Source: Gammaproteobacteria bacterium (lineage in GTDB: Bacteria; Pseudomonadota; Gammaproteobacteria; Ga0077536). From it: a DNA stretch of 33,088 nt. The stretch lies in assembly GCA_030429865.1 (NCBI GenBank), contig JAUIFX010000026.1, positions 1 through 33,088 on the forward strand, in the 5' to 3' direction. The position numbers were made by a program, and so were the translations under genes. Positions 4,677 to 20,263 of the stretch are shown in pieces. Every line of letters starts with the position of its first letter. Positions within the stretch are counted from its first letter, which is position 1. The notes beneath the pieces are model-generated. The model had not been told where the DNA came from and searched no databases. It worked only from the letters and a program-made list of their open reading frames with translations.

Positions 4677-5506
4677 CGGCCGGCAGCGGCGGCTGCCGCG
4701 AGGAGGATTTCGCCCTTGCCGCCGTGCGCCATGTCGCCGCACCAGCGTTCGGCGCGGCTGAAGTCGGCGATGCGGCGCGCCAGGCGGCGATCGATATCGA
4801 CCACGTACTGTGCGAGCAGGGGCATGATGGTCAGGGCGAAGGTGCCACTGGGATTGAACGTGGCCGGCATCTGCGCCGGCCGCTCGGCGAGCAGCAGGGT
4901 GCCACGGCGCATCCCGGCGCCGGCATGCGGGCCGCAGGCGCCGAGCACGATGATGGTGCCGGCCAGCATGCGATCGCCGGTGTAGGCGCCGCTGTCGCCG
5001 CAGATCGCGATGAGACCGCGGCGCATGCGTTCGCCGACGCGCTCGCCGGCGTCGCCGGTGACGATGATGGTGCCTTCGTTCATGCCGCGGGTTGCGCCCG
5101 GGAGCATGCCGCCGACACGATCGCCGACGCTGCCCTGGACGCGGATCAGGCCGCCGCGCATACCGAGGCCGACGCCGTCGCCGGCATTGCCGCGGACCAG
5201 GATGGTACCGCCGCTCATCTCGCGTCCGAGCTCGTCGCCCGGGTTGCCGCTGACCTCGAGCGTGCCGGATGTGAGCCCGGCGCCGACGCGCAGGCAGCCG
5301 CTGGTCAGGCCGCGCAGCGCGAGCAGCTCGCCGGGTTCGCCGTTGACCGCGAACAGGTCGCCGAGTGCGCTGCTGCGCGTGCCGTGCCGCAGGCGCAGGC
5401 GCCTGACCTGGTCGAGCGTCATGCCGTCGAGCGCGGCCGGCAGCAGCGGCGCGAGATCGAGCGCACCCACCGGGGCCGCGGCGAGAGTCAGTTCCAGGCG
5501 CGTCAC
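4673..5506 (-). CDS. fhcC: Formyltransferase/hydrolase complex subunit C (FwdC/FmdC family)
   Basis: 277 residues. Structural subunit of the Fhc complex, homologous to subunit C of archaeal formylmethanofuran dehydrogenase. It consists largely of glycine-rich beta-helix repeats, visible from about residue 65 to 205 as recurring G-x-I/L-x-V-x-G-x-x-G-D units, for example GTILVRGNAGDGVG and GTIIVTGDAGERVG. The start is GTG at 5506, overlapping the fhcD stop as GTGA. The stop overlaps the fdhB start as ATGA. It lies fourth in the minus-strand operon fhcB-A-D-C-fdhB-fdhA. Confidence 0.93.
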   Translation of the reverse strand: MTRLELTLAAAPVGALDLAPLLPAALDGMTLDQVRRLRLRHGTRSSALGDLFAVNGEPGELLALRGLTSGCLRVGAGLTSGTLEVSGNPGDELGREMSGGTILVRGNAGDGVGLGMRGGLIRVQGSVGDRVGGMLPGATRGMNEGTIIVTGDAGERVGERMRRGLIAICGDSGAYTGDRMLAGTIIVLGACGPHAGAGMRRGTLLLAERPAQMPATFNPSGTFALTIMPLLAQYVVDIDRRLARRIADFSRAERWCGDMAHGGKGEILLAAAAAAGR

Positions 5507-6396
5507 TTGAGGATGTCCCGCAGCTTGAAATGGTAAGGGCCGAGGCTGCCGCCGTAGTTACCGGCACTGATGCGCAGCACGCCGTGATTGCGTCCGCGGC
5601 AGGCCGCGCGGATGCCGACCCGCGTGGCTTCGTCGATGCTCGCGGTGTCGAGGCCGTCGATGACGATTTCGAGCACGGCGCCGACATCGGCTGAGAGCTC
5701 GCTGTCGACCGCACCTTTGAGCGTCGGGCAGAACAGGTGGTTGGTCGAGGCCGACAGCGTCTTGTACTTGGAGCCGACCTTGGAACCGGAACGCACGACA
5801 CCGCCCGGGAACGGCATGATCACGCCGGGTACGGTCTGCATGGCGACGATCGCGCGCTCCGCCGCGGCCAGGGCCGCGGCCTGGTCGCGCGCCAGGATGA
5901 GGAAATTGCCGCCGCCGATGGCCTTGACCATGCGCGTCATCTCCTCGCACACGAACTCGCCGTCCATCACCGGTACGCGCCAGTAGCGCTTGCCGCCGAA
6001 CTTCTTCGATATCTGGTGACCGTCGCCGAAGTAGCGCAGGTTCTTGCCCAGCGCGATCGGCTCGCCCTCGTCGAGCCCGGCGAAGCATGCGCTGGTCGGC
6101 GAGGTCAGCACGCACTGGCCGACGCGGTTCTGGATCTGCTTGCCGAGCTCCTTCTTGCTCATGGTGAACAGCAGCACCGCGATGCCCGGGCGGCCGTCGG
6201 GGGTTTCGCTCGGCTTGAGACGGCGTTCGATGCCGGCTTCGCAGCCGCAGGCGATGACCGAGGTGGCGAAGCCCGTCATGGCGCGCGCGGCGTGCTCGGC
6301 CCAGGTCTCGTTGTAGGCGGTGACGACCAGCCGCGTGGCCTTCATGGGAAAGGCCTCGGCGAAGGTGTTGTCTATGGCGACGCCGTTGATCTTCAT
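5503..6396 (-). CDS. fhcD: Formylmethanofuran:H4MPT formyltransferase subunit (Ftr/FhcD)
   Basis: 297 residues, the usual Ftr length. It transfers the formyl group from formyl-H4MPT to methylofuran within the Fhc complex, the step before hydrolysis to formate. Conserved features include the N-terminal INGVAIDNTFAEAFPMKATR, the central FGDGHQISKKFGGKRYWRVP, and the C-terminal KYKTLSASTNHLFCPTL and GRNHGVLRISAGNYGG. The start ATG at 6396 overlaps the fhcA stop as ATGA. Reading further upstream in this frame gives only an arginine/alanine-rich shadow of fhcA. Expected to be a cytoplasmic tetramer-forming subunit of the complex. Confidence 0.96.
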   Translation of the reverse strand: MKINGVAIDNTFAEAFPMKATRLVVTAYNETWAEHAARAMTGFATSVIACGCEAGIERRLKPSETPDGRPGIAVLLFTMSKKELGKQIQNRVGQCVLTSPTSACFAGLDEGEPIALGKNLRYFGDGHQISKKFGGKRYWRVPVMDGEFVCEEMTRMVKAIGGGNFLILARDQAAALAAAERAIVAMQTVPGVIMPFPGGVVRSGSKVGSKYKTLSASTNHLFCPTLKGAVDSELSADVGAVLEIVIDGLDTASIDEATRVGIRAACRGRNHGVLRISAGNYGGSLGPYHFKLRDILK

Positions 6397-8057
6397 GTCG
6401 AGCGCTTCGTCGGGTGCACGACCAGCTCGCCGCGCCCGTCGTCGCGGACCTCGTCGTCGGTGACGCGCAGGTTGTCCTTGCGCACCGTCATGTAGCGGTC
6501 GAAGTAGGTATCGAGGTCGCGTTCGATGGCGGTGTCGTAGTCCGGGTGGACGACGTGGGTCGCGCCGTGCACTTCCTCGACCACGCGGCCGTTGCGCACG
6601 ATCAGCTGCCCGTCCTTGAACACGTACTCGGGCTTGGCGAACATCTTCTCGCGGTTGGCCTGGTCCTTGTACACGGTGATGTGCGCGCGGGCGCCCGGCG
6701 CGAGCGAACCGAAACCCTTGAGGCCCAGCGAGCGGGCCGGCGCGGCGCGCGTCATGATGGCAATCTCGTAGAGCGAATACTCGCGGTCGATTGCGCCGAG
6801 CGTGGTCGCCGCCTGCGCCTCGGGGTTGATGGTGGCGAGCATGTCGCGGCGGAAGCTGCGGTCCATCAGCAGGCGGATCAGGTGCGGGTAGCTCGTGAAG
6901 GGCGCGCCGTTCGGGTGGTCGGTGGTGAGAAAGATGCGCCAGGGATCGTCGACGAGCAGGAACATTTCGAGGCCGATGGCCCACTGCAGCGCGTTGACGA
7001 AGTTGCGGTCCTTGTAGCGGAACGGCACGACGCCGCAGCCCGCTTCGCACTCGATGTCCATGCCGACCCATTTCTTCGGATCGGCGAAGGCGCTGCCCGC
7101 ATACTGGCGCATGCTGTCGCCCGATTCGGTGATGGTACGGCCGAACATGATCTGGCCGACGTCGAGCGAGACGTTGGGCGCCGCGTTCACCGCCTCGGCG
7201 ATGCGCGCCGCGCCGGAGGAGAACTTCTGGTCGCCTTCGGTGCCGTAGCTGTGGAACTGGACGTGGGTGAGATGCGCGCGCAGGCCTTCGAGTCCGCGGA
7301 TGGTGTCGAGCGTGGTCTCGACGTTACCCGGCACGCCGAGGTTGCAGCCGTGGACGTGCAGCGGGTGGGCGAGCCCGAGCGCGCGTACGCTGTCGGCCAG
7401 TGCGGTGAGGATCTGCCGCGGCGTAATGCCGTAGCCGGCGTTCTTCTCGTCGAGATCGAGCTTGCGCTGATTGAACTTGAACGCGTTGATGCCGCCCGGG
7501 TTGACGACCTTGATCGCAAGCGCCTGGCTTGCGTTCAGGGTCCAGGCGACGTAGTCGCGCAGGTATTCGGGGTCACGCTTGGCAGCGAGTGCGCGCAGCA
7601 GGTAGTCGTCGTTGCCGAGCAGCACGTAGGCGCCCTTGTCGACCATCGGCGTGTCGGCCAGCTCCATGTGCGCCTGGCGCGCATTACCGGCAAGCATGGC
7701 GGGTTCGAAGCAGGCCACGTAGCCCATCTCGGCATAGCGGTAGCCGGCGGTGCGCGTCGACGGCGCGGCGTGGCCGCAGCCGAGGTGCGGATGGCGGTTC
7801 GCGGCGACGAGGTCGGTCGCGTGATCCTCGGGCAGCATCATGCGGCCGATGTTGACCTTGCCGCCGCCGATGTGGGTGTGGATGTCGATCGCGCCGGACA
7901 TCACCACGCGGCCGGAGATGTCGATGACCTCCTTCGCCTCGCGCGGGTCGGCCGGTGCCTCGACGATGCGGCCATTGCGCAGGTAGAGATCGCGCACCTC
8001 GCCGTCGTCCCCGTTCTCGGGATCGTAGATGCGGCCACCCTTGAGTCTCGTCAGCAT
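6393..8057 (-). CDS. fhcA: Formyltransferase/hydrolase complex subunit A (amidohydrolase)
   Basis: 554 residues. Amidohydrolase-fold subunit that hydrolyses formyl-methylofuran to formate and methylofuran in the bacterial Fhc complex; it is homologous to FwdA/FmdA. A binuclear metal site is visible: H60-T-H62, a probable carboxylated lysine K183 in AIKVVNPGG, histidines in HPLHVHG (about 231-236) and HLTHVQFH (about 262-269), and D380 in TTDHPNG. The start ATG at 8057 is 7 bp after the fhcB stop, with a weak GAGAC purine stretch upstream. Length matches the family (about 540 to 570). All expected metal ligands are present, so it should be active. Confidence 0.96.
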   Translation of the reverse strand: MLTRLKGGRIYDPENGDDGEVRDLYLRNGRIVEAPADPREAKEVIDISGRVVMSGAIDIHTHIGGGKVNIGRMMLPEDHATDLVAANRHPHLGCGHAAPSTRTAGYRYAEMGYVACFEPAMLAGNARQAHMELADTPMVDKGAYVLLGNDDYLLRALAAKRDPEYLRDYVAWTLNASQALAIKVVNPGGINAFKFNQRKLDLDEKNAGYGITPRQILTALADSVRALGLAHPLHVHGCNLGVPGNVETTLDTIRGLEGLRAHLTHVQFHSYGTEGDQKFSSGAARIAEAVNAAPNVSLDVGQIMFGRTITESGDSMRQYAGSAFADPKKWVGMDIECEAGCGVVPFRYKDRNFVNALQWAIGLEMFLLVDDPWRIFLTTDHPNGAPFTSYPHLIRLLMDRSFRRDMLATINPEAQAATTLGAIDREYSLYEIAIMTRAAPARSLGLKGFGSLAPGARAHITVYKDQANREKMFAKPEYVFKDGQLIVRNGRVVEEVHGATHVVHPDYDTAIERDLDTYFDRYMTVRKDNLRVTDDEVRDDGRGELVVHPTKRST

Positions 8058-8064
8058 GACTGTC

Positions 8065-9348
8065 TCAGTACTTCTCGAGGATACGCGTGAGTACGCCGGC
8101 GACGCTCGGCAGGCCGCTGTCGCGCTGCTGCAGCAACGGCAGGGTGACGACGCTGTCGGCGCGCACCAGGCGCGCGAAATGATCGAGTCCGGGCGTGCCG
8201 ACGGGGATGAACACGCCGCACTGCGCCGCCACGCTCGGCCGGCTGCTGGCCAGCATCACGGTGCGGTCGAGCGGCGCGTCGGGCGGCGGCGTCGCCTGTT
8301 CGCCGAAGGCGTCGATCCACAGCAGGGCGTCGATGGCGCCGCCGTCGAGCAGCGCGCGGGTGGCGAACGCCTGCGGTTCGTACTGCAGCGTCTGCCCGAA
8401 GCCCACGCGCAGCGGGAATCCGCTCAGCCAGGCGCAGGTGTTCACGGCCGACTGTCCGCCGTCGTCGCCACCGAGCGCGAGCATGGCCGCGCGCGTGGTG
8501 CGGTTGAGTTCGTCGACGAGGTCGCCGATGGCCGCCATCGCGGGTTCACGGTGCTCGGCGAGCGCCGCCGGGGTGAAGACGAAGGTCGCGTAACGGGCCT
8601 CGCGCAGTTTCCCGGCGAGGTCGGCGAGCGCGCTCGCCGCGCTACCCGCCGGGCGGCGCGCGGCAAGACGGTGGCCGCGCAGCGTGGCGAGCAGCGCGAG
8701 CAGGACCTCGACGAGGTTCTCGCTGCGGCAGCTGAGCGTGGTGTCGGCACCGAGCGCCTCGGGTGCACGCTTGCCGGCGCCGATGAAGACGACTTCGCGG
8801 CCCTTGCCTGGCGCGTTGCCCGGGGCGGGCCGGGCATCCAGGCAGCGCCGCTTGAAGTTCTCGTAGCGTTGCGAGACGTCGACGTCGATGACGACCACGA
8901 GGTCGGCGCGGTTGCGCACTTCCGACAGCGTCGTCGCGTACCAGCCGCGCCCCTGCAGCATGCGCGACATCGAGGCGAGCGCGTCGCCGTGCACGTGGTC
9001 GAGGATGGCGTTACAGCGTTCGGCCAGGTTGACGCACGCGCGGATGCCGTCGACGTCGGTGGCCAGACCGCCGAAGAGCGGTTGGCGCGCCCGCTTGAGC
9101 AACTTCGCGGCGACGCCGATGGCCTCGTCGAGTGGCGCGCTGCGGCCGCCGATCAGCGCCTCGCTCGCGAGCGGTGCGCGCGCGTAACCGGCGGCGGCGC
9201 GGCGGCAGCCGTGGCGCGCGACGGTGAAACTGGCATCGGGGCGTTGATTCAGCGCGAGGTCATCGCACAGCAGCGCGCAGAACGGGCAGACTGCGGAGGT
9301 CGGCGCGGGCTTATCGGTCGATCCCTTGGACACGGTCAGTGACGGCAC
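8065..9348 (-). CDS. fhcB: Formyltransferase/hydrolase complex subunit B (FwdB-like, probably non-catalytic)
   Basis: 427 residues. Bacterial counterpart of the Mo/W subunit of formylmethanofuran dehydrogenase. It keeps the N-terminal cluster-type cysteines C21, C24, C28 (CPFCALLCDD) and C48 (RHGC). At the place where archaeal FwdB has the metal-binding Cys in a VCHGPS-like motif, this protein reads DHVHGDA, so the metal ligand appears lost. This fits the known role of the bacterial complex, which releases formate instead of oxidising it. The first codon is GTG at 9348 with no convincing Shine-Dalgarno; GTG at 9333 would shorten the protein by 5 residues and is equally possible. First gene of the six-gene operon; its promoter must lie in 9349-9578. 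Confidence 0.92.
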   Translation of the reverse strand: MPSLTVSKGSTDKPAPTSAVCPFCALLCDDLALNQRPDASFTVARHGCRRAAAGYARAPLASEALIGGRSAPLDEAIGVAAKLLKRARQPLFGGLATDVDGIRACVNLAERCNAILDHVHGDALASMSRMLQGRGWYATTLSEVRNRADLVVVIDVDVSQRYENFKRRCLDARPAPGNAPGKGREVVFIGAGKRAPEALGADTTLSCRSENLVEVLLALLATLRGHRLAARRPAGSAASALADLAGKLREARYATFVFTPAALAEHREPAMAAIGDLVDELNRTTRAAMLALGGDDGGQSAVNTCAWLSGFPLRVGFGQTLQYEPQAFATRALLDGGAIDALLWIDAFGEQATPPPDAPLDRTVMLASSRPSVAAQCGVFIPVGTPGLDHFARLVRADSVVTLPLLQQRDSGLPSVAGVLTRILEKY

Positions 9349-9578: not shown

Positions 9579-10595
9579 GTGCGTGGACTGTCCAACGTGA
9601 GCGCGACCCAGACTGCTTTCCGTGTCGACGCCGCGGCGCGCCTGCATCTCGGATTCCTCGACCCGGGCGCCGCGCTCGGACGCCGCTTCGGCAGCATCGG
9701 CCTGGCTATCGAGGGTTTGTCGACGAGCGTCGTGGCCATGCCGCACGACGAGCTGCAGATCCTCGGCGAGGAATCGACGCGCACCCGTGCGCTGGTCGAG
9801 CGGCTGCTCGCACACTACGGGTTTGCGCCGCGCGTGCGCGTGGTCGTCGAGCGCGCGATCCCCGGGCACGCCGGTCTCGGATCGGGCACACAGCTCGCGC
9901 TTGCCGTCGGTACGGCGCTCACCGCGCTCAACGGTCGGCGTGCGGACAGCGGTGAGCTCGGGGCGTTGCTCGGGCGCGGTCGGCGTTCCGGCATCGGGCT
10001 GTCGCTGTTCGAACACGGCGGGCTGGTCGTCGATGCCGGTCACGGCAGCGCCACGGTGACCCCACCGGTCGTGACCCGCCTCGCGTTCCCCGCGGACTGG
10101 CCCATCATCCTCATCTTCGACCAGGCGAGCGAAGGCCTCAGCGGCGGTGCCGAGCGGCGCGCGTTCGAGACCCTCGAGCCGCTGCCCGCGGCGGCCGCGG
10201 CGCACCTGTGCCATCTCACGTTGATGCGCATCCTGCCCGCGGTGCTCGAACACGATTTCGAACCGTTTGCCGACGGCATCGGCGAGGTGCAGGCGGTCGT
10301 GGGTGACCACTTCGCCGCGGTCCAGGAAGGCCGTTACACGAGCGCGCGCGTGGCGCGCGCGGTGGCGCTGCTCGAGTCCCGCCTGGGCCTGCGCGGGGTC
10401 GGGCAGAGCAGCTGGGGGCCGACCGCGTTCGCCTTCGCCCCCGACCGTGACACGGCGACCGCGGCGCTTGCCGCGCTGCGCGAGCAGTTCCCGCGCGAGC
10501 CCGGGCTCGAGTTCCGCCTGTGCACGGCACGCAACGACGGCGCGAGCTGCGCCGCGGCGGCGACGGCAGTCGATGCCCGGCGTGCGAGCGCCTGA
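9579..10595 (+). CDS. mptG: Beta-ribofuranosylaminobenzene 5'-phosphate synthase
   Basis: 338 residues. GHMP-kinase-fold enzyme that condenses 4-aminobenzoate (4-hydroxybenzoate in some archaea) with PRPP, releasing CO2 and PPi, the first committed step of the H4MPT side chain. Family signatures seen: AARLHLGFLDPG near residue 20, GSIGLAIEG, the glycine-rich IPGHAGLGSGTQLALA near residue 92, RRSGIGLSLFEHGGLVVDAG, and GVGQSSWGPTAFAF near residue 270. The first possible codon is GTG at 9579; GTG at 9597 (MSATQTAF) has a slightly better upstream GTGGA and may be the true start. A TATAAT lies 26 bp upstream of 9579. First gene of the plus-strand H4MPT operon, 30 bp before mtdB. The pabB gene at 18262 may supply its substrate. 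Confidence 0.92.
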   Translation: MRGLSNVSATQTAFRVDAAARLHLGFLDPGAALGRRFGSIGLAIEGLSTSVVAMPHDELQILGEESTRTRALVERLLAHYGFAPRVRVVVERAIPGHAGLGSGTQLALAVGTALTALNGRRADSGELGALLGRGRRSGIGLSLFEHGGLVVDAGHGSATVTPPVVTRLAFPADWPIILIFDQASEGLSGGAERRAFETLEPLPAAAAAHLCHLTLMRILPAVLEHDFEPFADGIGEVQAVVGDHFAAVQEGRYTSARVARAVALLESRLGLRGVGQSSWGPTAFAFAPDRDTATAALAALREQFPREPGLEFRLCTARNDGASCAAAATAVDARRASA

Positions 10596-10625
10596 AACGC
10601 GCCACCGGTCCTCCAGGAGCCCGAC

Positions 10626-11537
10626 ATGGATCATCCCTACCTGCTGCACATCTTCAGCCCGACGAAGTACGTCAGCCCCTTCGACATCAACATGGCCTAC
10701 GAGGCGCAGTTCGACGACGTCATTCCCTATTGCAACGTCGAGCTCGACGAAGTGCACGGACTGACCCAGGACACCATCTTCTCGCGCAGCCCGGAAGGTG
10801 TGAAACGCACCGGTATCTTCATCGGTGGGCGCGAGTTCGGCTTGTCGCTGGAGATGCTGGCGGCCGCCCGCGCCGCCATGGTGCCGCCGTTCGAAGTCTC
10901 GGTGATGGCCGACCCGAGTGGCGCCATCACCACGGCTGCGGCAATGGTGGCGCTGGCCGGCCATTGGCTCGCACGGGCCGGTGGCGACCTCGACGGCAGC
11001 CGGGTGTGCGTGTTCGGCGGCACCGGGCCGGTCGGTATGTGCGTCGCGCTGCTCGCCGCGCGTGCCGGTGCACAGGCGGCGATCGTGTCGCACCAGGGGC
11101 TCGGTGCGGCACAGCTCGTCGCCGACCGCATGACGCGTGACTTCGGCGCCCGCATTCATGGCCTCGATGGCAGCTCCAGCGAAGCCGTGGCGCAATGGCT
11201 CGGTGACATCGACATCGCCTTCAGCGCGGCCAAGGCGGGTGTGCGCGTGGTCGAGCGTGCGCAACTCGACACGGCTGCTGCGCTCAAAGTCGTCGCCGAT
11301 GCCAACGCAGTGCCGCCGAGCGGTATCGAGGGCGTCGACGCCAACGATCGCGGCGAGCCGCTCACGGTCGGTGACGGCGGCACGGCGTATGCACTCGGCG
11401 CGCTTGCCATCGGCGACATCAAGTACCGCGTGCACACCTCGTTGCTGCGCCAGATGTACAGTGCGGCGGAACCCGTCTACCTGGGCTGCGACGAAGCCTA
11501 CGCGACGGCATGCAAAGTCGTCGCCGAGCGCACCTGA
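10626..11537 (+). CDS. mtdB: NAD(P)-dependent methylene-tetrahydromethanopterin dehydrogenase
   Basis: 303 residues. Oxidises methylene-H4MPT to methenyl-H4MPT, the step after Fae. The N-terminus carries the substrate-domain motif HIFSPTKYVSPFDINMAYEA. A Rossmann motif GGTGPVGMCVA follows near residue 135. The C-terminal VVADANAVPPSGIEGVDAND and GALAIGDIKYRVH are family-typical. A good AGGAG at 10615-10619 sits 6 nt before the ATG. MtdB-type (NAD/NADP) and MtdC-type (NADP) enzymes are close relatives. I favour MtdB because of the linkage with mch and fae, but cofactor choice cannot be settled by eye. Confidence 0.93.
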   Translation: MDHPYLLHIFSPTKYVSPFDINMAYEAQFDDVIPYCNVELDEVHGLTQDTIFSRSPEGVKRTGIFIGGREFGLSLEMLAAARAAMVPPFEVSVMADPSGAITTAAAMVALAGHWLARAGGDLDGSRVCVFGGTGPVGMCVALLAARAGAQAAIVSHQGLGAAQLVADRMTRDFGARIHGLDGSSSEAVAQWLGDIDIAFSAAKAGVRVVERAQLDTAAALKVVADANAVPPSGIEGVDANDRGEPLTVGDGGTAYALGALAIGDIKYRVHTSLLRQMYSAAEPVYLGCDEAYATACKVVAERT

Positions 11538-11603
11538 CGCGGCGGCGCGGGCAATGACGGCGCGCGGCCCCGCGGGCGCGCACGGCGCAGCCGGCGGTTG
11601 CCG

Positions 11604-12776
11604 GTGAACCGGCCGCCGCTGCTGATCGTCGCGACCAGCGCGCGCGCCATCGCCGCGGCGGCGAGCGAGCAGTTCACGCCGCTGACGATCGATCTCTTCG
11701 CCGATCGTGACACGCAGGCGTGCGCCGCGCGCGCCGTGCGCGTGACGGCCGGGGACGATTACGCGCTGCCGCAGGCGCCGGTGCTGGCGGCCGTCGAAGC
11801 GCTGGCGCGCAGCAGTGCGTCGCGCCTGCCGGCGATCTACGGCAGCGGTTTCGAAGCCGCGCCGGCACTGCTCGCGGCGATCGCGCGCCACGTCGATGTC
11901 CTCGGCTGCGAGAGCAGCGTGCTGCGGCGGCTCGGCGACATGCCCGCGCTGACGGCATGCTTTGCGGGTGATACGGCGCTGCGCTTTGCGGCGACCACGC
12001 GTGACGCGCCGGCGCTGCCGCACGGGTGGCTGGTGAAGCAGGACGCGCGCTGCGGCGGCCTGCACGTGCGCGCCGCGCGCGCCGGCGACGTGGCCGCCGC
12101 GGGACGCTACTTCCAGCGGCGTGTCGACGGCCCGGTGTGGTCGGCGCTGTTCGCCGTCGCGGGCGGCCGCTGCGTGGTGTGCGGCGCCGCGCGGCACCTG
12201 CGCACGTTGCCGGCGCCGCGCGCACCGTACGCCTGGCAGGGCGCACTGAACACCGGTGATGTACCGCTCTGTGTGCAAGCGCTCGAACGATGCGGACAAC
12301 GGTTGGCGGAAGTGCTCGGACTGCGCGGCGTGTTCGGCATCGATTTCGTGCCGCGCGACGGGCTCCCGATCGTGCTCGACATCAACCCGCGCCTGACCGC
12401 GAGCCTCGACGTCTACCCCGAGCGCGGCGCGCTCGTCGCTGCGCACGTGGCCGCTTGTGCCCGGGACACCCTCTTGTATAGTAGGCCGGCGGCGCGTTCC
12501 GTGCGCGGTGCGGTGGTGCTTTACGCGTGCCGGTCCGGCCGCGTGCCCGACGCGTTCGCATGGCCCGAAGGCGTCGCCGACGTACCGCATTGCGGCAGCG
12601 CGGTTGCCGCGGGCGCACCCCTGGTGAGTGTCATCGTCGAGGACCAGTCTGGCGACACGGTCCGCGCCCGGCTCACCGAAACCAGTCGCGCGCTCGCGCA
12701 CCGGCTCGCCGCGCGCGGCGCAGACCTGCTGCCGCACGACATAACGATAAGACCCGTGGGAGGACCCGATGTCTGA
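11604..12776 (+). CDS. ATP-grasp ligase of the H4MPT/methylofuran cluster
   Basis: About 390 residues. The C-terminal half has an ATP-grasp look: [15 protein letters not shown] near residue 145, a lid-like region, then [12 protein letters not shown] and [17 protein letters not shown] (metal-binding Asp/Asn), and a small C-terminal domain. It resembles the carboligase-like ATP-grasp group (COG2232) that accompanies C1 genes in methanogens and H4MPT-using bacteria. The reaction is unknown; an acid-amine ligation in methylofuran or H4MPT side-chain synthesis is inference. The start is uncertain: GTG at 11604 is preferred over TTG at 11598, and neither has a Shine-Dalgarno. The end overlaps mch by 8 bp, so the two are translationally linked. 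The 60-bp gap after mtdB holds nothing recognisable. Confidence 0.72.
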
Positions 12777-13752
12777 ACTGCAACTGGATGGCTCCATCAA
12801 CGTCAGCGAGCGCACGCGGCCCCTGGTCGCGGCCCTGTGCGAGAACGCCGCCGAGTACCGCGTCGGCGTGAGCCGCAGCGACAGCGGCGTGACCCTCATC
12901 GACGCCGGCATCGATGCGCCGGGCGGCCTCGAGGCCGGCCGCCTCATTGCCGAGATCTGCATGGGCGGACTGGGGCGCGTGGCGCTCAGCGGCGCAGCGC
13001 CGTTCGCACGCTGGCGCTGGCAGGTCGACGTCACGTCCCTGCATCCCGTCATCGCCTGTCTCGGGTCGCAGTACGCCGGCTGGAGTCTCAGCCACGGCGA
13101 GGGCAAGGGCGCCTTCTTCGCGCTCGGCTCGGGCCCCGCACGGGCGATGGGCAGCAAGGAGCCGCTGTTCGACGAACTCGGCTGGCGCAACCCGGCCGGC
13201 GACACGGTGATCGTGCTCGAGGTCGACCGCGTGCCGCCGCCCGAGATCGCGGAGAAGATCGTCAGCCGCTGCGGCATCGAGCCGGCGCAGCTGACCCTCG
13301 TCCTGACGCCGACGTCGAGCCTCGCCGGCGGCATGCAGATCGTCGCGCGCGTGCTCGAAGTCGCCTTGCACAAGGTGCACGAGCTGCATTTCCCGCTCGG
13401 CGACATTGTCGACGGTGCGGCGAGCGCGCCGTTGCCGCCGCCGTCACCCGATTTCATGACCGCGATGGGCCGCACCAACGATGCCATCCTGTTCGGCGGC
13501 CAGGTGCACCTCTACGTCCGCGGCGAGGACGAGGCCGCGCGCGATCTCGCCGAACGCCTGCCGAGTTCGGCCTCGCGCGATTTCGGCAAACCGTTCGCGC
13601 AGGTCTTCAAGGACTACGGTTACGACTTCTACAAGGTCGACCCGATGCTGTTCTCGCCGGCACGCGCGCTGGTGACGAACGTCACCAGCGGCAACAGCTT
13701 CGAGGCCGGCGCGCTGCACGAGGACTTGCTCGCGCAGTCCTTCGGCGCCTGA
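12769..13752 (+). CDS. mch: Methenyltetrahydromethanopterin cyclohydrolase
   Basis: 327 residues, the family length. Hydrolyses methenyl-H4MPT to 5-formyl-H4MPT, linking MtdB and the Fhc complex. Family signatures seen: [16 protein letters not shown] near residue 45, [70 protein letters not shown] and [18 protein letters not shown]. The ATG at 12769 is preceded by GGGAGGA with 4 to 5 nt spacing and lies inside the end of the preceding ATP-grasp gene. 13 bp separate its stop from the next gene. Confidence 0.96.
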
Positions 13753-13765
13753 CGCGGCGCGCGCC

Positions 13766-14671
13766 GTGCGTCCGCGCCTGGCGATCTTCACCGACGAACC
13801 GGGTTGGCACGGACGCCAGCTCGCGCGCGTGTTCGAGCGCGCCGGCTACGAGGCCGTGTTCGTCTCGCTGACGGACTGCCGCGTCGAGCTCGGCGCGTGC
13901 GGTCACGGCGTGGTTGTGCCCGGCTTCGACGGTGCGCTGCCGGCCGGGGCCTTCGTGCGCGGTGTGCCCGGCGGTTCGCTCGAAGCGATCACCTTGAGGC
14001 TGGACTTCCTGCACCTGCTCGCGGCGCTCGGCTGCCCCGTGTTCAACGACGGCCGCACCATCGAGCGGACGGTCGACAAGGCCATGACGACGCTGCTGCT
14101 GCGCCACCACGACGTGCCCACCCCCCCGACCTGCGTCACCGAGTCGCACGCCGCCGCGCTGGCCCACGTCGCGCGCGCGGAGGCCGAGGGCCGCGTACTG
14201 GTCAAGAAGCCGTTGTTCGGTTCGCAGGGCAAGGGATTGCGCCGCATCGCGCGCGCCGCCGATCTCGGCTTCCTGTTACCCGGCGAGGTCGCCTACCTGC
14301 AGGACTTCGTGCACACCGGTGACGGACCGTTCCGCGATTGTCGCGTGATGGTCGTCGATGGCCGGGCGATCGCGGCCATGGAGCGCAGCAGCCATCACTG
14401 GATCACCAACCGCGCGCAGGGTGCGGAGTGCCGTTCGATCCCGCTGCAGGACACGCTCGCGGGGATCGCCGAGCGCGCTGCCGGCGCGGTCGGCGCGGCC
14501 TATGCCGGCGTCGACCTGCTGCGCGACCGGGACGGCCGCTGGCTCGTCACCGAGGTCAACGGCATTCCGGCGTGGCAGGGTCTGCAACGCGCCACCGGCA
14601 TCGACGTCACCGCGCTGATCGGCGCGGCGTTCCTGGCGCGGCTCGATCGCGGCCTCGCGGCGCTCGCCTGA
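13766..14671 (+). CDS. RimK-like ATP-grasp ligase (orf5-type gene of H4MPT clusters)
   Basis: 301 residues. RimK/glutathione-synthetase-type ATP-grasp protein: N-terminal pre-ATP-grasp domain, FNDGRTIERTVDKAMTTLLL near residue 92, LVKKPLFGSQGKGLRRI near residue 147, QDFVHTGDGPFRDCRVMVV, and the C-terminal metal site GVDLLRDRDG then LVTEVNGIPAWQG. Archaeal MptN of this superfamily adds glutamate to H4MPT, and RimK adds alpha-linked glutamates. A role in adding a side-chain acid to H4MPT or methylofuran is therefore plausible but inferred. The order mch, RimK-like, CitG-like, fae matches mch-orf5-orf7-fae as I recall it from Methylorubrum extorquens. The start is GTG at 13766, 13 bp after mch, without a clear Shine-Dalgarno. 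Confidence 0.8.
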   Translation: MRPRLAIFTDEPGWHGRQLARVFERAGYEAVFVSLTDCRVELGACGHGVVVPGFDGALPAGAFVRGVPGGSLEAITLRLDFLHLLAALGCPVFNDGRTIERTVDKAMTTLLLRHHDVPTPPTCVTESHAAALAHVARAEAEGRVLVKKPLFGSQGKGLRRIARAADLGFLLPGEVAYLQDFVHTGDGPFRDCRVMVVDGRAIAAMERSSHHWITNRAQGAECRSIPLQDTLAGIAERAAGAVGAAYAGVDLLRDRDGRWLVTEVNGIPAWQGLQRATGIDVTALIGAAFLARLDRGLAALA

Positions 14672-14679
14672 GCGTGGCG

Positions 14680-15528
14680 ATGTCCGCGCCCCTGGCGCGC
14701 GCGCGGCGCGAGGCGGCCCTGCTCAAGGCCTGCCGCCTGGACGTCGTCGCCTTCAAGCCCGGCAACGTCAGCCTGTGCTCGCCCGGCCACGGCATGCGGG
14801 CGGCGGACTTCCTCGCCAGCGCGCGCATCGCCGTGCCCCGGCTGTGCGCGGAAGGCCTCGGCGTCGGGCAGCGCACGAAGCACGCGATGGAAGCAACGAT
14901 GGCCGCGGTCGGCTGCAACACCAATCTCGGCATCGTTCTGCTGCTCGCGCCGCTGGCCGCGGCGAGCGAGCGGCGCGCGCCGCTGCGCGAAGCCCTTGCC
15001 GAAGTGCTCGCATCGCTGACGGTAGACGACGCGCGGGCCTGTTACGCGGCGATACGCGCCGCGCAGCCGGCCGGACTCGGCACGGTCGAGGAGGGTGACG
15101 TGCACGCGCCCGTGACGCACGATCTCGGCGCGGCGATGGCGCTCGCCGCCGCGCGCGATTCGGTCGCACGACAATACGGCACCGTATTCAACGACGTCTT
15201 CGCGCACGGCGTGCCGTTGCTCCGCGAGTTGCGCGCGCGCTGGCGTTCGCTCGCCTGGGCGACCACCGCGTGCTACCTCGATCATCTTGCGCGCTGGCCC
15301 GATTCGCATGTCGCGCGCAAGCACGATCGGGCACGTGCCGGGGCGCTCCAGGCGTCCGCGCAGGAGGTAGCAAAGGCCATGAAAGCGTGCGAGAATCCTC
15401 GCTCGCTCGCGGTCCGTCTGACAGCCTTCGATCGCGAGCTCAAGACGAGGGGCAGCAATCCGGGTACCAGCGCAGACCTCACGGTCGCCAGCGTGGCAGC
15501 GCTGCTTCTGCTGGAACGCTCTTCCTGA
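14680..15528 (+). CDS. CitG-like (triphosphoribosyl-dephospho-CoA synthase family) protein, orf7-type
   Basis: 282 residues from ATG 14680; GTG at 14674 would add two. Family signs: an early VVAFKPGNVSL (the KPGNVS signature), TMAAVGCNTNLGIVLLLAPLA, DVFAHGVPLLREL, and the C-terminal KTRGSNPGTSADLTVASVAAL. CitG joins a phosphoribosyl moiety to dephospho-CoA, and the same chemistry could install a ribosyl-phosphate on an H4MPT precursor. That substrate assignment is inference from cluster linkage; no citrate lyase gene is present. It follows the RimK-like gene by 8 bp and ends 158 bp before the preferred fae start. Confidence 0.8.
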   Translation: MSAPLARARREAALLKACRLDVVAFKPGNVSLCSPGHGMRAADFLASARIAVPRLCAEGLGVGQRTKHAMEATMAAVGCNTNLGIVLLLAPLAAASERRAPLREALAEVLASLTVDDARACYAAIRAAQPAGLGTVEEGDVHAPVTHDLGAAMALAAARDSVARQYGTVFNDVFAHGVPLLRELRARWRSLAWATTACYLDHLARWPDSHVARKHDRARAGALQASAQEVAKAMKACENPRSLAVRLTAFDRELKTRGSNPGTSADLTVASVAALLLLERSS

Positions 15529-15560
15529 CTCCGAACAAGAAGAACAAAACGGAATTCACT

Positions 15561-15588
15561 CACGCATTTGTGTCGCGAGAGATGCGTG
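15561..15588. promoter_or_regulatory. Inverted repeat upstream of fae
   Basis: CACGCAT at 15561-15567 and ATGCGTG at 15582-15588 form perfect 7-bp arms around a 14-nt centre that itself contains the palindrome TCGCGA (15573-15578). The segment 15529-15680 is clearly more AT-rich than its neighbours, as expected for a control region. There is no T-run after it, so a terminator is unlikely. It could be an operator or a leader hairpin governing fae. Confidence 0.45.
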
Positions 15589-15686
15589 CAATGAAACGCT
15601 GACGAGGAGTTGGCGCAATGTCCATTTTCAAGGCACTCTTTGGAACACAAACCGTAGAATCCCAAGTATCAGAAGGAGATAGAGGC

Positions 15687-16199
15687 ATGGCAGTTGTTGA
15701 TCGAGTACTCGTTGGCGAATCGCTCGTCGGCGATGGAAACGAAGTCGCTCACATCGATTTGATCATGGGTCCGCGCGGCAGCGCGGCCGAAGCCGCGTTC
15801 TGTAACTGCGTGACCAACAACAAGGACGGCTTCTCGAGCCTCCTCGCCGTGGTTGCGCCGAACCTCGCGTGCAAGCCCAACACCGTGATGTTCAACAAGG
15901 TGACCATCAAGGGTTCCAAGCAGGCCGTGCAGATGTTCGGCCCGGCGCAGCGTGGCGTCGCCATGGCCGTTGCCGACAGCGTCGAAGACGGCACCATCCC
16001 GGCTGCCGAGGCCGACGATATCTTCATCTGCGTCGGTGTGTTCATCCACTGGCTGGCCGAGGACAACGCCAAGATCCAGGACTACAACTACCAGGCGACC
16101 AAGGAAGCCATCCAGCGCGCCGTCGCGCGCGAGCCGAAGGCTGCCGACGTCGTTGCCCAGAAGGGCAGCGTCGATCATCCGTTCCAGGCGCACAGCTGA
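15687..16199 (+). CDS. fae: Formaldehyde-activating enzyme
   Basis: 170 residues. Condenses formaldehyde with H4MPT to methylene-H4MPT in the cytoplasm, the entry point of the pathway. Near-complete family signature: [20 protein letters not shown] with the conserved catalytic-region His22, [36 protein letters not shown] and [22 protein letters not shown] 15687 is chosen because it gives the standard Fae length and start and has AAGGAG at 15673-15678 with 8-nt spacing. A second in-frame ATG at 15618, also with a good GAGGAG, would add 23 residues. A TAGAAT at 15655-15660 between the two starts could be the -10 of a promoter private to fae. It is followed by an intrinsic terminator. Confidence 0.96.
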
Positions 16200-16293: not shown

Positions 16294-17004
16294 TCAGCCG
16301 TGAAAGGCGGCGAGGGACGCCGCGTCGAGGCGGCCGTCATGCAGTGCGCTGCCGATCAGCACGCCCGCGATGCCGTCCGCGGCGAGGCGCGCAAGGTCGC
16401 CGGCATTGCGCACGCCACCCGCGGCGAACAGCTGCCGTGCGGGGCCGGCCCGGGTGCGCAGCTCGGCGAGCCCGGCGAAATCGGGCCCGCCGTCGCTGCC
16501 GACCCGGCTCAGGTTCATGTGGATGAGGCGCGCCGGCCAGGCCGACGGCGTGTCGAACACCGCCGCGCAGCCCAGGCGCCGTTCGCCCTGGCGATCGAGC
16601 GAGAGGAACGTGCGCCCCACGGGCAGCGCCGTAAGCAGCGTTTCGAGTTCCGCGAGCGAAGACAGGGCTTCGCTGCCCAGCACGATGTCGACGTTCTCCT
16701 GCGCGGCGCACGCCGCGGGCGAATGGGCCGCCGAGAAACCCGCGTCGACCAGCACGCGCAGGCCGGCGTGGGCCGCAGCGATGCGTGAGATCAACGCGGT
16801 GTGCGGCCGCGCATGCATGATGGCATCGAGGTCGGCGATGTATATCGCCGCGATCGGCAGCGCTGCGCACAGTGCGCCAACGAGCACCTCGGGATCGGTG
16901 CTGTCGCTGTAGCGGCTGACCAGTGGGCGGTAGCTGTCACGACGGCCCTGCACGGCGTGCACCGCGATGCCGTCCTTGATGTCGATCACGGGAATTATCT
17001 GCAT
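16294..17004 (-). CDS. HisA-like TIM-barrel protein of the C1 cluster
   Basis: 236 residues. Related to phosphoribosyl-formimino-AICAR isomerase (HisA): N-terminal IPVIDIKDGIAVHAVQGRR with the first catalytic-type Asp, IYIADLDAIM, VDAGFS, SLDRQGERRLG, HMNLSRVGSDGGPDF (second catalytic-type Asp region) and LFAAGGVRNAGDLARLAADG as the phosphate-binding end. HisA-related proteins (COG1411) recur beside H4MPT genes in methanogens and methylotrophs, so a role in methylofuran or H4MPT synthesis is likelier than histidine synthesis. No other his gene is nearby. The ATG at 17004 starts the conserved first strand. It is the only minus-strand gene between two plus-strand C1 blocks. Confidence 0.8.
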   Translation of the reverse strand: MQIIPVIDIKDGIAVHAVQGRRDSYRPLVSRYSDSTDPEVLVGALCAALPIAAIYIADLDAIMHARPHTALISRIAAAHAGLRVLVDAGFSAAHSPAACAAQENVDIVLGSEALSSLAELETLLTALPVGRTFLSLDRQGERRLGCAAVFDTPSAWPARLIHMNLSRVGSDGGPDFAGLAELRTRAGPARQLFAAGGVRNAGDLARLAADGIAGVLIGSALHDGRLDAASLAAFHG

Positions 17005-17209
17005 CGACGAGGTCCGTGCGAACTCGAAGAAAAGGGCGCGCCATGGTAGCGCAGATCGTCGCCGGCCCGGCGTGACGCGCAACGTTTTCCAAGCACTGCG
17101 ACAGCCGATATGCTGAGCGGGGTCTGAACACGGCGTCTGCCCCGCGCCCGGGCGTGGCGGTTCACGCTTTCGGCGCTTACCGGGCGCCCGTTTCCTTCGT
17201 CGGTACAAC
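17005..17209. promoter_or_regulatory. Divergent intergenic region, hisA-like / mfnF-like
   Basis: 205 bp separating divergent genes, so it should contain both promoters. Only weak candidates are visible: TACCAT on the minus strand near 17042 and TATGCT on the plus strand near 17108, neither with a convincing -35. The palindrome GGGCGCCC lies upstream of the mfnF-like start, which has no clear Shine-Dalgarno. Confidence 0.3.
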
Positions 17210-18262
17210 ATGAACACGGACATCTTCGGCTGGGACATCGGCGGCGCGCACCTCAAGGTCGCGCGGCTCGACGCATCCGGCAACGTCTCGAGCGTGCACC
17301 AGCTCGCCTGCCCGCTATGGCGTGGCGTGGGCGAACTCGCGCGCAGTGCGGCGCCGCTTGCCGGTATGTTCGAGCTGCCCGGCGCCGTGCACGCGGTGAC
17401 CATGACCGGTGAACTGTGCGACGTCTTCGCGACGCGCGCCGACGGGGTTCGGGCGATCCTCGGTGCCTTCACCGAGCTGGTCGGCGGCGACGCCCGCATC
17501 CGCGTGTTCGCTGGAAAGGCGGGCTGGCTGAGTCCGCGCGAAGCGATGTCCTCGGGGGGTGGCGCGGTGGCGTCGGCGAACTGGCTGGCCCTGGCTGTCC
17601 ATGTCGCCGAACAGGTCGGCGACGGTGTATTGATCGATGTCGGCAGCACGACGACGGACGTGATCCCGTTCAGCGCGGGCGCGGTCCGCGCCGAGGGTCA
17701 TGACGACGCCACGCGGCTGGCCAGCGGCGAGCTCGTCTACACCGGCGTGGTGCGGACGCCGGTCGCGAGCGTGTGCACGCGGGTACCGTTTCGCGGGCGC
17801 TGGCAGCCGCTCGCCGCCGAGACGTTTGCCACTATGGCGGACGTCCATCGCCTGTGCGGTACGCTCACCGAGCGTCACGACCTCATGGAGACGGCCGACG
17901 GCGGCGCCAAGGATGTCCCGGCGAGTGCGCGCCGCCTCGCGCGCATGGTCGGCTGCGATCTGGCCGGCGCCGCGGGGCTCGCCGAGATGCGGCAGCTGGC
18001 GCAATACGTCGCGCGGCGCCAGCGCGGCACGATCGCCGACGCGCTGGCCCTGGTCATGAGCCGTGGCGGCGCCGCGAACGCCGATGCGCCGCTGGTCGGC
18101 GCGGGGGCCGGCCGTTTCGTCGTCGCGGCGCTCGCCGCCGCGGTGGGGCGCGCCTATCGCCCGTTCGAACAGCTCGTCGGCGCCGGCTCAGCGCTCGGCG
18201 ACGCCGTCGCCGTCGCCGCCCCCGCGGTGTCCGTGGCGCGCCTTGCCTGGATGGCCCGGTGA
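17210..18262 (+). CDS. mfnF: H4MPT-linked C1-pathway protein, MfnF-like (methylofuran synthesis)
   Basis: 350 residues. Hydantoinase/acetyl-kinase-like fold: FGWDIGGAHLKVARLD at residues 6-21 and LIDVGSTTTDVIPF at 141-154 are the two phosphate-site signatures. The family is the long-known one-carbon protein of H4MPT clusters. Its archaeal member MfnF joins the furan diphosphate to gamma-glutamyl-tyramine in methanofuran synthesis. The bacterial cofactor is methylofuran, in which tyrosine-based acceptors have been reported, so the exact acceptor here is open. It overlaps pabB by one base (TGATG), and the kinase gene two steps on fits the preceding MfnE step. Start at ATG 17210. Confidence 0.75.
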   Translation: MNTDIFGWDIGGAHLKVARLDASGNVSSVHQLACPLWRGVGELARSAAPLAGMFELPGAVHAVTMTGELCDVFATRADGVRAILGAFTELVGGDARIRVFAGKAGWLSPREAMSSGGGAVASANWLALAVHVAEQVGDGVLIDVGSTTTDVIPFSAGAVRAEGHDDATRLASGELVYTGVVRTPVASVCTRVPFRGRWQPLAAETFATMADVHRLCGTLTERHDLMETADGGAKDVPASARRLARMVGCDLAGAAGLAEMRQLAQYVARRQRGTIADALALVMSRGGAANADAPLVGAGAGRFVVAALAAAVGRAYRPFEQLVGAGSALGDAVAVAAPAVSVARLAWMAR

Positions 18263-19659
18263 TGCTCGCCGACGCCACGCTGCACGAGATCGAGTACTCG
18301 CCGGACACGGCCGCGCGCCTGCACCGGCTCGCGCCGCAGACGTGGTTCGTGCTGCTCGACAGCTGCGCCGCGAGCGGCCGTGGCGGGCGTTACGACATCG
18401 CTGCGTGGGAACCGGTGGTGACGCTGCAGACGCGCGGCGAACAGACCTGTATCGACGACCACGGCAGCGGCGCACGCGAGTGGTCGCAGGCCGATCCGTT
18501 CGCGCTCGTCGCCGCCCGGCTCGGCGACGAGGCAAGCCATCCCGAGCTGCCGTTCAGCGGCGGCGCGATCGGCCTGTTCGGCTACGACCTCGGACGACGC
18601 ATCGAGACGCTGCCCAGCCGTGCCGCGGCGGACATTGCGGTGCCCGACATGGCTGTCGGCATCTACGCGCGCTGCCTGGTCGTCGACCACCAGCGGGCGC
18701 GCGCCTGGTACGTCGAGCGGGGTGCGAGCGATGCCCAGGTCGCGCTCGACCTCGCGCGCCTCGAGGTGCCGCGCACGCTGACGCCGCCGGCGATCAGTAC
18801 CGACTTCGTCGTGACCTCGGCGGTGCGGCCGGAGATCGGCTTCGACGATTACGCGGCGGCGTTCGCGCGTATCGAGCATTACATCCGCGAGGGCGACTGT
18901 TACCAGGTCAACTACGCGCAGCGTTTCAGCGCCGCGGCCGACGGCGATGGCTGGGATGCCTACCAGCGGCTGCGGTTGCTCAACGGCGCGCCGTTCGCGG
19001 CCTTCATGCGCCTGCCGGACGGCGTCGTGCTGAGCTCCTCGCCCGAACGCTTCCTCGAAGTACGCGGTGACCTCGTCGAGACGCGGCCGATCAAGGGCAC
19101 GCGCGGGCGCTCCAGCGACCCGGTGCGCGATGCCGCGCTCGCCGAGGCGCTGCGGCACAGCCGCAAGGACCGTGCCGAGAACGTCATGATCGTCGACCTG
19201 CTGCGCAACGACATCGGCAAGAGCTGCGCGACCGGCTCGGTCCGCGTACCGCACCTGTTCGACGTCGAAACCTACGCGCGCGTGCATCACCTGGTGAGCA
19301 CCGTGCGCGGCCGCCTGCGCGCCGATGTCGGACCGCTCGACGTGTTGCGCGGCTGTTTCCCCGGCGGCTCCATCACCGGCGCGCCCAAGCTGCGCGCGAT
19401 GGAGATCATCGAGGAACTCGAACCGACGCGGCGCAACGTCTATTGCGGTTCGCTCGGCTATGTCTCGCACGATGGCCAGATGGATACCAACATCGCCATC
19501 CGTACCTTGCTCTACACCGGCGGGCGCCTCTACTGCTGGGCCGGCGGCGGCATCGTCGTCGACTCGGTGCTCGAGGAGGAATACCAGGAGTCGCTCGACA
19601 AGGCCGCGGCCATGCTCAACCTGTTCGCCGATGCCGAAATCCTCCACGTGGGTCGTTAA
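18262..19659 (+). CDS. pabB: Aminodeoxychorismate synthase component I
   Basis: 465 residues. Chorismate-binding enzyme that makes aminodeoxychorismate, the precursor of 4-aminobenzoate. It is PabB rather than TrpE because the core motif reads RPIKGTRGR, with Lys278 where TrpE has Ala. Other signatures: GGAIGLFGYDLGR near 100, IREGDCYQVNYAQRF near 208, ENVMIVDLLRNDIGK, FPGGSITGAPKLRAMEIIEELE and GGGIVVDSVLEEEYQE. The ATG at 18262 shares a base with the mfnF-like stop. Placement in the C1 island suggests a dedicated 4-aminobenzoate supply for MptG. No pabA (glutaminase) or pabC is in the window, so these must come from elsewhere. Confidence 0.93.
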   Translation: MLADATLHEIEYSPDTAARLHRLAPQTWFVLLDSCAASGRGGRYDIAAWEPVVTLQTRGEQTCIDDHGSGAREWSQADPFALVAARLGDEASHPELPFSGGAIGLFGYDLGRRIETLPSRAAADIAVPDMAVGIYARCLVVDHQRARAWYVERGASDAQVALDLARLEVPRTLTPPAISTDFVVTSAVRPEIGFDDYAAAFARIEHYIREGDCYQVNYAQRFSAAADGDGWDAYQRLRLLNGAPFAAFMRLPDGVVLSSSPERFLEVRGDLVETRPIKGTRGRSSDPVRDAALAEALRHSRKDRAENVMIVDLLRNDIGKSCATGSVRVPHLFDVETYARVHHLVSTVRGRLRADVGPLDVLRGCFPGGSITGAPKLRAMEIIEELEPTRRNVYCGSLGYVSHDGQMDTNIAIRTLLYTGGRLYCWAGGGIVVDSVLEEEYQESLDKAAAMLNLFADAEILHVGR

Positions 19660-20263
19660 ACTCGGCGGCGCGATGATGCACAGCGCGGTGCTCGCGCGCT
19701 GGCTCGCCGCTTGTGCCTCGTCCCGGCCGGTGCGCTGCGTGGTCGTGCTCGGCGGCGGCCGCCTGGCCGACGAGATCCGTGCGTTGCATACCCGTTGGGG
19801 TTTCGAGGAGGCGCGCGCGCACGAGTTCGCCATCGCCGCCATGGCGATAAACGCCGGCGTCGCCGCGGCGCTCGAGCCCGCGCTGGTGGATTTCACACGC
19901 CGTTTGCCGCCGGGTGAAAGCGGCGCCTTGTGGCGGCCCGAAGGTGCGTGCGAATGGCTGGACGTGCCGGCGAGCTGGGCGGCGACCTCCGACAGCCTGG
20001 CCGTCGCGCTGGGGTGCGCGCTCGACGCCGAGGCGGTCTGCCTGGTCAAGTCCCCGCCGGCGGCGGAATTCCCCGCCGGGGACGCCGCCGCCTGCGCCGC
20101 GGCGGGTTTCGTCGACGCCCACCTGCCGCGATTGCTCACCGAGTGCACGGTTCCCGTGCATGCCGTCTCGCGCGACGCGGTGGACGAATTCATCGCCGCG
20201 CGCGCGACGGGGGCGCTGCCCGGGCGCCGCTTGTACGTGACACCGGCCACGTCGACCCGCTAG
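19631..20263 (+). CDS. mfnE: Amino-acid-kinase-fold small-molecule kinase, MfnE-like
   Basis: 210 residues. Aspartokinase/UMP-kinase fold: WVVKLGGAMMHS at residues 7-18 (phosphate-binding KLGG), VVVLGGGRLADEIR near 34, SDSLAVALGCALDAEAVCLVKSP near 117, and a short C-terminus. Matches the small kinase group linked to methanofuran synthesis, in which archaeal MfnE converts the aminomethyl-furan phosphate to its diphosphate, the substrate of MfnF. Adjacency to the mfnF-like gene supports this. The only plausible start is ATG 19631, which lies 29 bp inside pabB in another frame, so its translation is probably coupled. The functional assignment is by homology and context. Confidence 0.68.
   Translation: MPKSSTWVVKLGGAMMHSAVLARWLAACASSRPVRCVVVLGGGRLADEIRALHTRWGFEEARAHEFAIAAMAINAGVAAALEPALVDFTRRLPPGESGALWRPEGACEWLDVPASWAATSDSLAVALGCALDAEAVCLVKSPPAAEFPAGDAAACAAAGFVDAHLPRLLTECTVPVHAVSRDAVDEFIAARATGALPGRRLYVTPATSTR

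Follow-up and report, generated by a model that had tools for sequence, protein, structure and literature searches.

A pabB gene interlocked with mfnF-like and mfnE-like genes in a gammaproteobacterial tetrahydromethanopterin/methylofuran gene island

A stretch of gammaproteobacterial DNA of 33,088 nucleotides (the window) carries three open genes on one strand, each overlapping the next: an mfnF-like gene, pabB, and an mfnE-like kinase gene. The first and third belong to the furan branch of C1-carrier synthesis, while pabB had been assigned to the pterin branch. From such interlocking the initial annotation had concluded that the two carriers, tetrahydromethanopterin (H4MPT) and methylofuran (MYFR), are made in concert. 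The overlaps themselves are confirmed: the genes lie at 17210-18262, 18262-19659, and 19631-20263 and share 1 bp and then 29 bp.

A block of three genes within a C1-cofactor island

The block is set within an H4MPT/MYFR gene island, whose features in the window are as follows.

4673..9348, minus strand: fhcC, fhcD, fhcA, and fhcB, the formyltransferase/hydrolase complex, as open reading frames, with an FTR (PF01913) match at 5968-6396
9579..16199, plus strand: mptG, mtdB, ATP-grasp, mch, RimK-like, CitG-like, and fae, the island neighbours
16294..17004, minus strand: HisA/HisF-like TIM-barrel gene, divergent from mfnF
17210..18262, plus strand: MfnF/Orf9 homolog with a hydantoinase/oxoprolinase fold, 350 aa
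18259 (GTG) or 18262 (ATG)..19659, plus strand: pabB, aminodeoxychorismate synthase component I, 465 aa from the ATG at 18262
19631..20263, plus strand: MfnE/Orf21-type kinase of the amino-acid-kinase family, 210 aa
19631..19659, plus strand: the pabB/kinase overlap, 29 bp, no Shine-Dalgarno

Also upstream, along with fhc, are genes presumably of the formate dehydrogenase type, a name given from sequence. The HisA/HisF-like product reaches 94.8 bits with TIGR00734, under the cut-off of 180. Downstream of the kinase gene lie a chemoreceptor-like gene and then nrdB, and mfnB is found on a separate contig (C110), after a DUF447 gene. Three of the neighbours are named by position: the ATP-grasp gene stands in the orfY/myfA position, the RimK-like gene in that of orf5/myfB, and the CitG-like gene in that of orf7, the orf and myf names being drawn also from passages of published work (PMC8141765, PMC3615186). 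For pabB, an in-frame GTG three bases upstream of the ATG is an equally possible start; its use would lengthen the mfnF/pabB overlap from 1 bp to 4 bp (GTGA), a spacing that many relatives could also use. The kinase has a sole in-frame start before its KLGG motif, the ATG at 19631.

Family matches and a 50-row alignment uphold the names first given to the three genes at the level of homologs. The MfnF-like product exceeds the cut-off of TIGR03123 (H4MPT-linked C1 transfer protein, Orf9; 316.2 bits, cut-off 244.1), falls under that of the MfnF equivalog NF040623 (141.4 bits, cut-off 520), and has a solved relative in 3c0b/3cet (E 1.6e-30). The pabB product exceeds the cut-off of TIGR00553 (378.1 bits, cut-off 328.4) and has the motif PIKGT where TrpE of the same genome has PLAGT; we take the lysine to be a mark of PabB. 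The sole NCBIfam match of the kinase is MfnE (NF040622), at 39.4 bits with an equivalog cut-off of 300, and it is consequently named an MfnE/Orf21-type homolog rather than a certified MfnE.

So low a score is what would speak for the kinase acting on another substrate and being a mere neighbour of the furan genes. However, MfnE is its best family among the NCBIfam kinases, with the KxGG, GGG, AH, SW, and D residues conserved, and all 50 rows of its alignment match MfnE, whereas no more than 19 match any other kinase family (19 ArgB, 5 archaeal PyrH). Residues K10, G12, G13, G41-43, A63, H64, W116, D121, K140, and D162 are invariant over these rows. Among solved structures the profile has a single strong match, 7qrh (E 1.7e-28). 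Its aligned part reaches 344 bits with the MfnE model and thus, unlike the window kinase, passes the cut-off; both belong to the amino-acid-kinase family, and to the shared KxGG, GGG, and D they add AH, SW, and TSD in common. Finally, in the relative G018, discussed below, no kinase match is found and mfnF and mfnB are gone as well. The window kinase is divergent from the archaeal-type MfnE, and a different substrate seems very improbable.

Taken together, these results favour a reading, to which we give a probability of roughly 0.85, in which the block forms the furan end of a proteobacterial island for H4MPT and methylofuran and encloses the only PabB gene of the cell. The enzyme activities are inferred by homology. 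The kinase would carry out the presumed second phosphorylation, from aminomethyl-furan phosphate to the diphosphate, and MfnF/Orf9 would presumably condense this diphosphate with the Glu-Tyr or Glu-tyramine part. PabB would provide aminodeoxychorismate for the 4-aminobenzoate on which folate and H4MPT both draw. The gene order would then reflect co-expression of cofactor supply and not a mutual dependence of the two carriers.

Islands of this kind are known. Passages of one study (PMC8141765) describe Orf22, Orf21, and Orf9 as the proteobacterial MfnB, MfnE, and MfnF homologs, and the "archaeal-like" cluster of Methylorubrum extorquens treated there has the same Orf9, Orf21, and Orf22 families, likewise beside fhc and H4MPT genes; in the window, in contrast, pabB separates mfnF from mfnE, and mfnB lies on a different contig. 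That pabB occurs in H4MPT islands is already in print: for the Methylophilaceae it is named alongside orf9 and further genes of the islands (PMC4109929), and in methylotrophs it is said often to accompany the H4MPT genes, with none reported for Methylosinus trichosporium OB3b (PMC3615186). The passages concerned in these two accounts give no overlap or exact order. The same annotated order, mfnF-pabB-kinase, is found on plasmid pTs485 of Candidatus Thiodictyon syntrophicum, where the pabB/kinase overlap is 14 bp and an ATP-grasp gene (mfnD/orf1 type, named by position) precedes mfnF, unlike in the window's order.

Conservation of the gene order and its limits

The initial annotation had pointed to the synteny of pabB with mfnE and mfnF as a check on its proposal. 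Three samples bear on this: 36 genomes of the order, 369 of the class, and a phylum sample that gave 17 further loci. In the order, MfnF is found in 21 of the 36 genomes, and 19 of these 21 loci have the order mfnF-pabB-kinase; the remaining two are cut off in pabB by a contig end, and one of them (G008) has pabB-kinase on another contig (L171). In the class, MfnF is found in 46 of the 369 genomes (41 over the cut-off and 5 under it). Short under-cut-off matches had been dropped before counting (G405, and in the class sample G518, G768, and G773); three further genomes under the cut-off (G763, G672, and G702) are counted among the 46 without their loci being included, so that the class loci come from 40 of the 43 genomes outside the window's family. 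The triple is present in 32 of these 40. Five of the other eight end at pabB (at least three of them at contig ends), one has mfnF-kinase without pabB, one has mfnD-mfnF, and one has mfnF alone. The three phylum-sample loci that fall within the class comprise one triple and two cases of mfnF-kinase, and the triple appears in none of the 14 from other classes.

Because the mfnE and mfnF products are 32-57% identical to those of relatives in the same order outside the genus, and the arrangement with pabB is kept, as are for the most part the lengths of the pabB/kinase overlap given below, the block is not a chance assembly. An mfnD/orf1-type ATP-grasp gene precedes mfnF in 37 of the 40 class loci, and none of the 21 loci of the order has it in that position (17005-17209 in the window, and 20 others). 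The HisA/HisF-like gene adjoins mfnF in 71 of 81 loci. The Fhc formyltransferase is present in all 46 MfnF-bearing class genomes. Few genomes of the class sample have FTR without MfnF, 4 of 50 (75, 87, 78, and 95% complete), and incompleteness may explain these four. In a separate observation, several class genomes (G543, G557, G442, G653, and others) have two FTR matches a few kb apart, some with a divergent extra FTR.

This pattern bears on the view with which the locus was first read, namely, that the block ties pterin and furan synthesis together and thereby fixes the ratio in which the two carriers are made, and that pabB serves H4MPT specifically. The conservation of the interlocking order is in keeping with it, as is Azospirillum, in which the kinase gene overlaps one annotated as dihydroneopterin aldolase, another pterin-type gene, and mfnF lies elsewhere. 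Yet Aquabacterium, Azoarcus, and Paraburkholderia have mfnF-kinase with no pabB between, the triple is missing from the sampled loci of other classes, and mfnB, in the window's own genome, is on another contig. When the PabB supply and the gene losses described below are added, fixed proportion appears unlikely, and co-expression of cofactor supply is preferred.

PabB supply and the loss of furan genes

The assignment of pabB to pterin-branch supply holds for the identity of the enzyme but is too narrow as to its role. Two chorismate-binding enzymes were found in the genome, which is 95.7% complete: the island PabB and TrpE (576 bits, cut-off 518). The island gene thus appears to be the only one of the PabB type, although at this completeness a second could be missed. 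With one PabB and one TrpE, PabB must supply folate as well as H4MPT, a point that counts against its serving H4MPT in particular. Among the 36 genomes of the order, PIKGT-type PabB is seen only in the island. TrpE stands alone in nine genomes that are cluster-less or fragmentary (G003, G005, G024, G027, G029, G030, G032, G033, and G034), and G021 and G022 have a different enzyme with PMKGT. As a related observation, relatives without the island (loci L164, L165, L166, L167, and others) have TrpE, and no PabB was found in them. A CADD-type replacement of PabB in these genomes was considered and rejected, as none of the 36 reaches the cut-off of TIGR04305; the sub-cut-off match in the window's genome adjoins the mfnB locus and resembles what we take to be PqqC.

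The relation between the two branches can be examined in G018, G019, and G020, three genomes of one genus of the window's family. G018, which is 99% complete, has on one contig (L185, C214) fhcB, fhcA, fhcD, mptG, mtdB, myfA, mch, the RimK-like and CitG-like genes, fae, pabB, the chemoreceptor gene, and nrdB, but within 9753-13123 of that locus the hisA-mfnF stretch is missing to the left of pabB and the kinase to its right. At a second locus (L186, C287, 9576-10620), the next gene follows directly after DUF447, where relatives have mfnB. Searches of the whole genome found no MfnF, MfnB, MfnE-type kinase, or hisA-like gene. The same four were not found in G020 (92% complete), in which the chemoreceptor gene lies about 90 bases after pabB with no kinase between (L193, C169, 7235-8122); here the missing kinase is the only loss seen directly, the other junctions being at contig ends and the mfnB locus possibly unassembled. 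G019 has all four, including the kinase. Since G019 and G020 are the closer pair by identity in most genes compared, this suggests two losses, in G018 and in G020, or one loss followed by regain. G003 was weighed as a third case but set aside: here the hisA-like gene runs into a contig edge, a kinase piece of 74 positions still matches, and mfnB is split into two fragments, which looks like an assembly gap.

In G018, mfnB, mfnE, and mfnF are gone while pabB, Fhc, mch, mtdB, mptG, and fae are retained, which weakens the idea of concerted synthesis of the two carriers; persistence of the pterin genes and pabB under these circumstances argues against strict concert. Nor does Fhc look decayed in either genome, judging by its conserved positions: of the columns invariant in six other sequences (214 in FhcA, 69 in FhcB, and 144 in FhcD), none is changed in both G018 and G020. 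Methylofuran is described, in a passage of PMC8141765, as a prosthetic group of Fhc. If so, G018 makes it in some other way, has the genes on an unbinned replicon, or takes up the furan core and glutamylates it. The last possibility leads to a speculative proposal, which we think more probably wrong than right by a wide margin: a furan-core auxotrophy within one genus, in which G018 has undergone deletions at three places that removed the hisA-like gene along with mfnB, mfnE, and mfnF, has kept an Fhc of normal conservation together with the glutamate ligases MyfA and MyfB, and would take up the core from its neighbours and add the glutamate tail. In G020 at least mfnE is gone, in what appears to be an independent loss. 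On this proposal the hisA-like gene would belong, so far unrecognised, to the furan branch, and its loss together with the others in G018 makes it a candidate for a missing furan step.

Translation of the kinase gene

The initial annotation had also noted that the kinase starts inside pabB without a Shine-Dalgarno of its own, and this proves correct: none is present upstream, and the anti-Shine-Dalgarno duplex energy is +1.0. With a 29-bp overlap and no ribosome-binding site of its own, the pabB/kinase junction has the two features expected of a coupled pair. In the mechanism proposed here, the block would be read from one polycistronic mRNA, and translation of the kinase would be fed by ribosomes that finish or cross pabB.

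Of the 19 triples of the order, 11 have a 29-bp overlap, 7 a 26-bp overlap, and 1 an overlap of 1 bp; among 33 junctions from other families, 14 bp is the commonest value (n = 10), and the range runs from a 41-bp overlap to a 27-bp gap. Such drift is compatible with another explanation, in which the kinase starts independently and the overlap is mere compaction, tolerated because change is readily borne both by the PabB tail and by the residues preceding the first strand of the kinase. This explanation also draws on L065 and L066, which have a GGAGG Shine-Dalgarno at the same 29-bp overlap and so count against coupling, and on L047, L049, and L056, which have GGAG at the same place. However, the window start itself is poor, and as a group the kinase starts are weaker than controls: a duplex energy of -5 or lower is reached by 8 of 19 in the order and 7 of 33 more widely (shuffled level about 0.2), whereas among the control starts (fae, mch, nrdB, mtdB, and mcp) 32 of 36 in the order and 21 of 25 more widely do so. 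Only loci in which the window protein aligned within its first 6 residues enter these control counts, the loci are related and not independent, and shuffled control upstreams reach -5 in 0.22 to 0.61. The relative lack of Shine-Dalgarno sequences favours coupling, which is plausible on these sequence comparisons, and independent initiation, though it keeps some weight, is the less likely of the two.

Thus, the block is ordinary, a well-conserved part of an island type already known, and it illustrates that tight gene overlap does not prove linked carrier levels. A pabB gene in such an island can be the cell's whole supply of 4-aminobenzoate, and its mutants should accordingly affect folate and H4MPT alike. 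The loss in G018 is the lead to pursue, as this genome offers a natural test of the possible sources of methylofuran.
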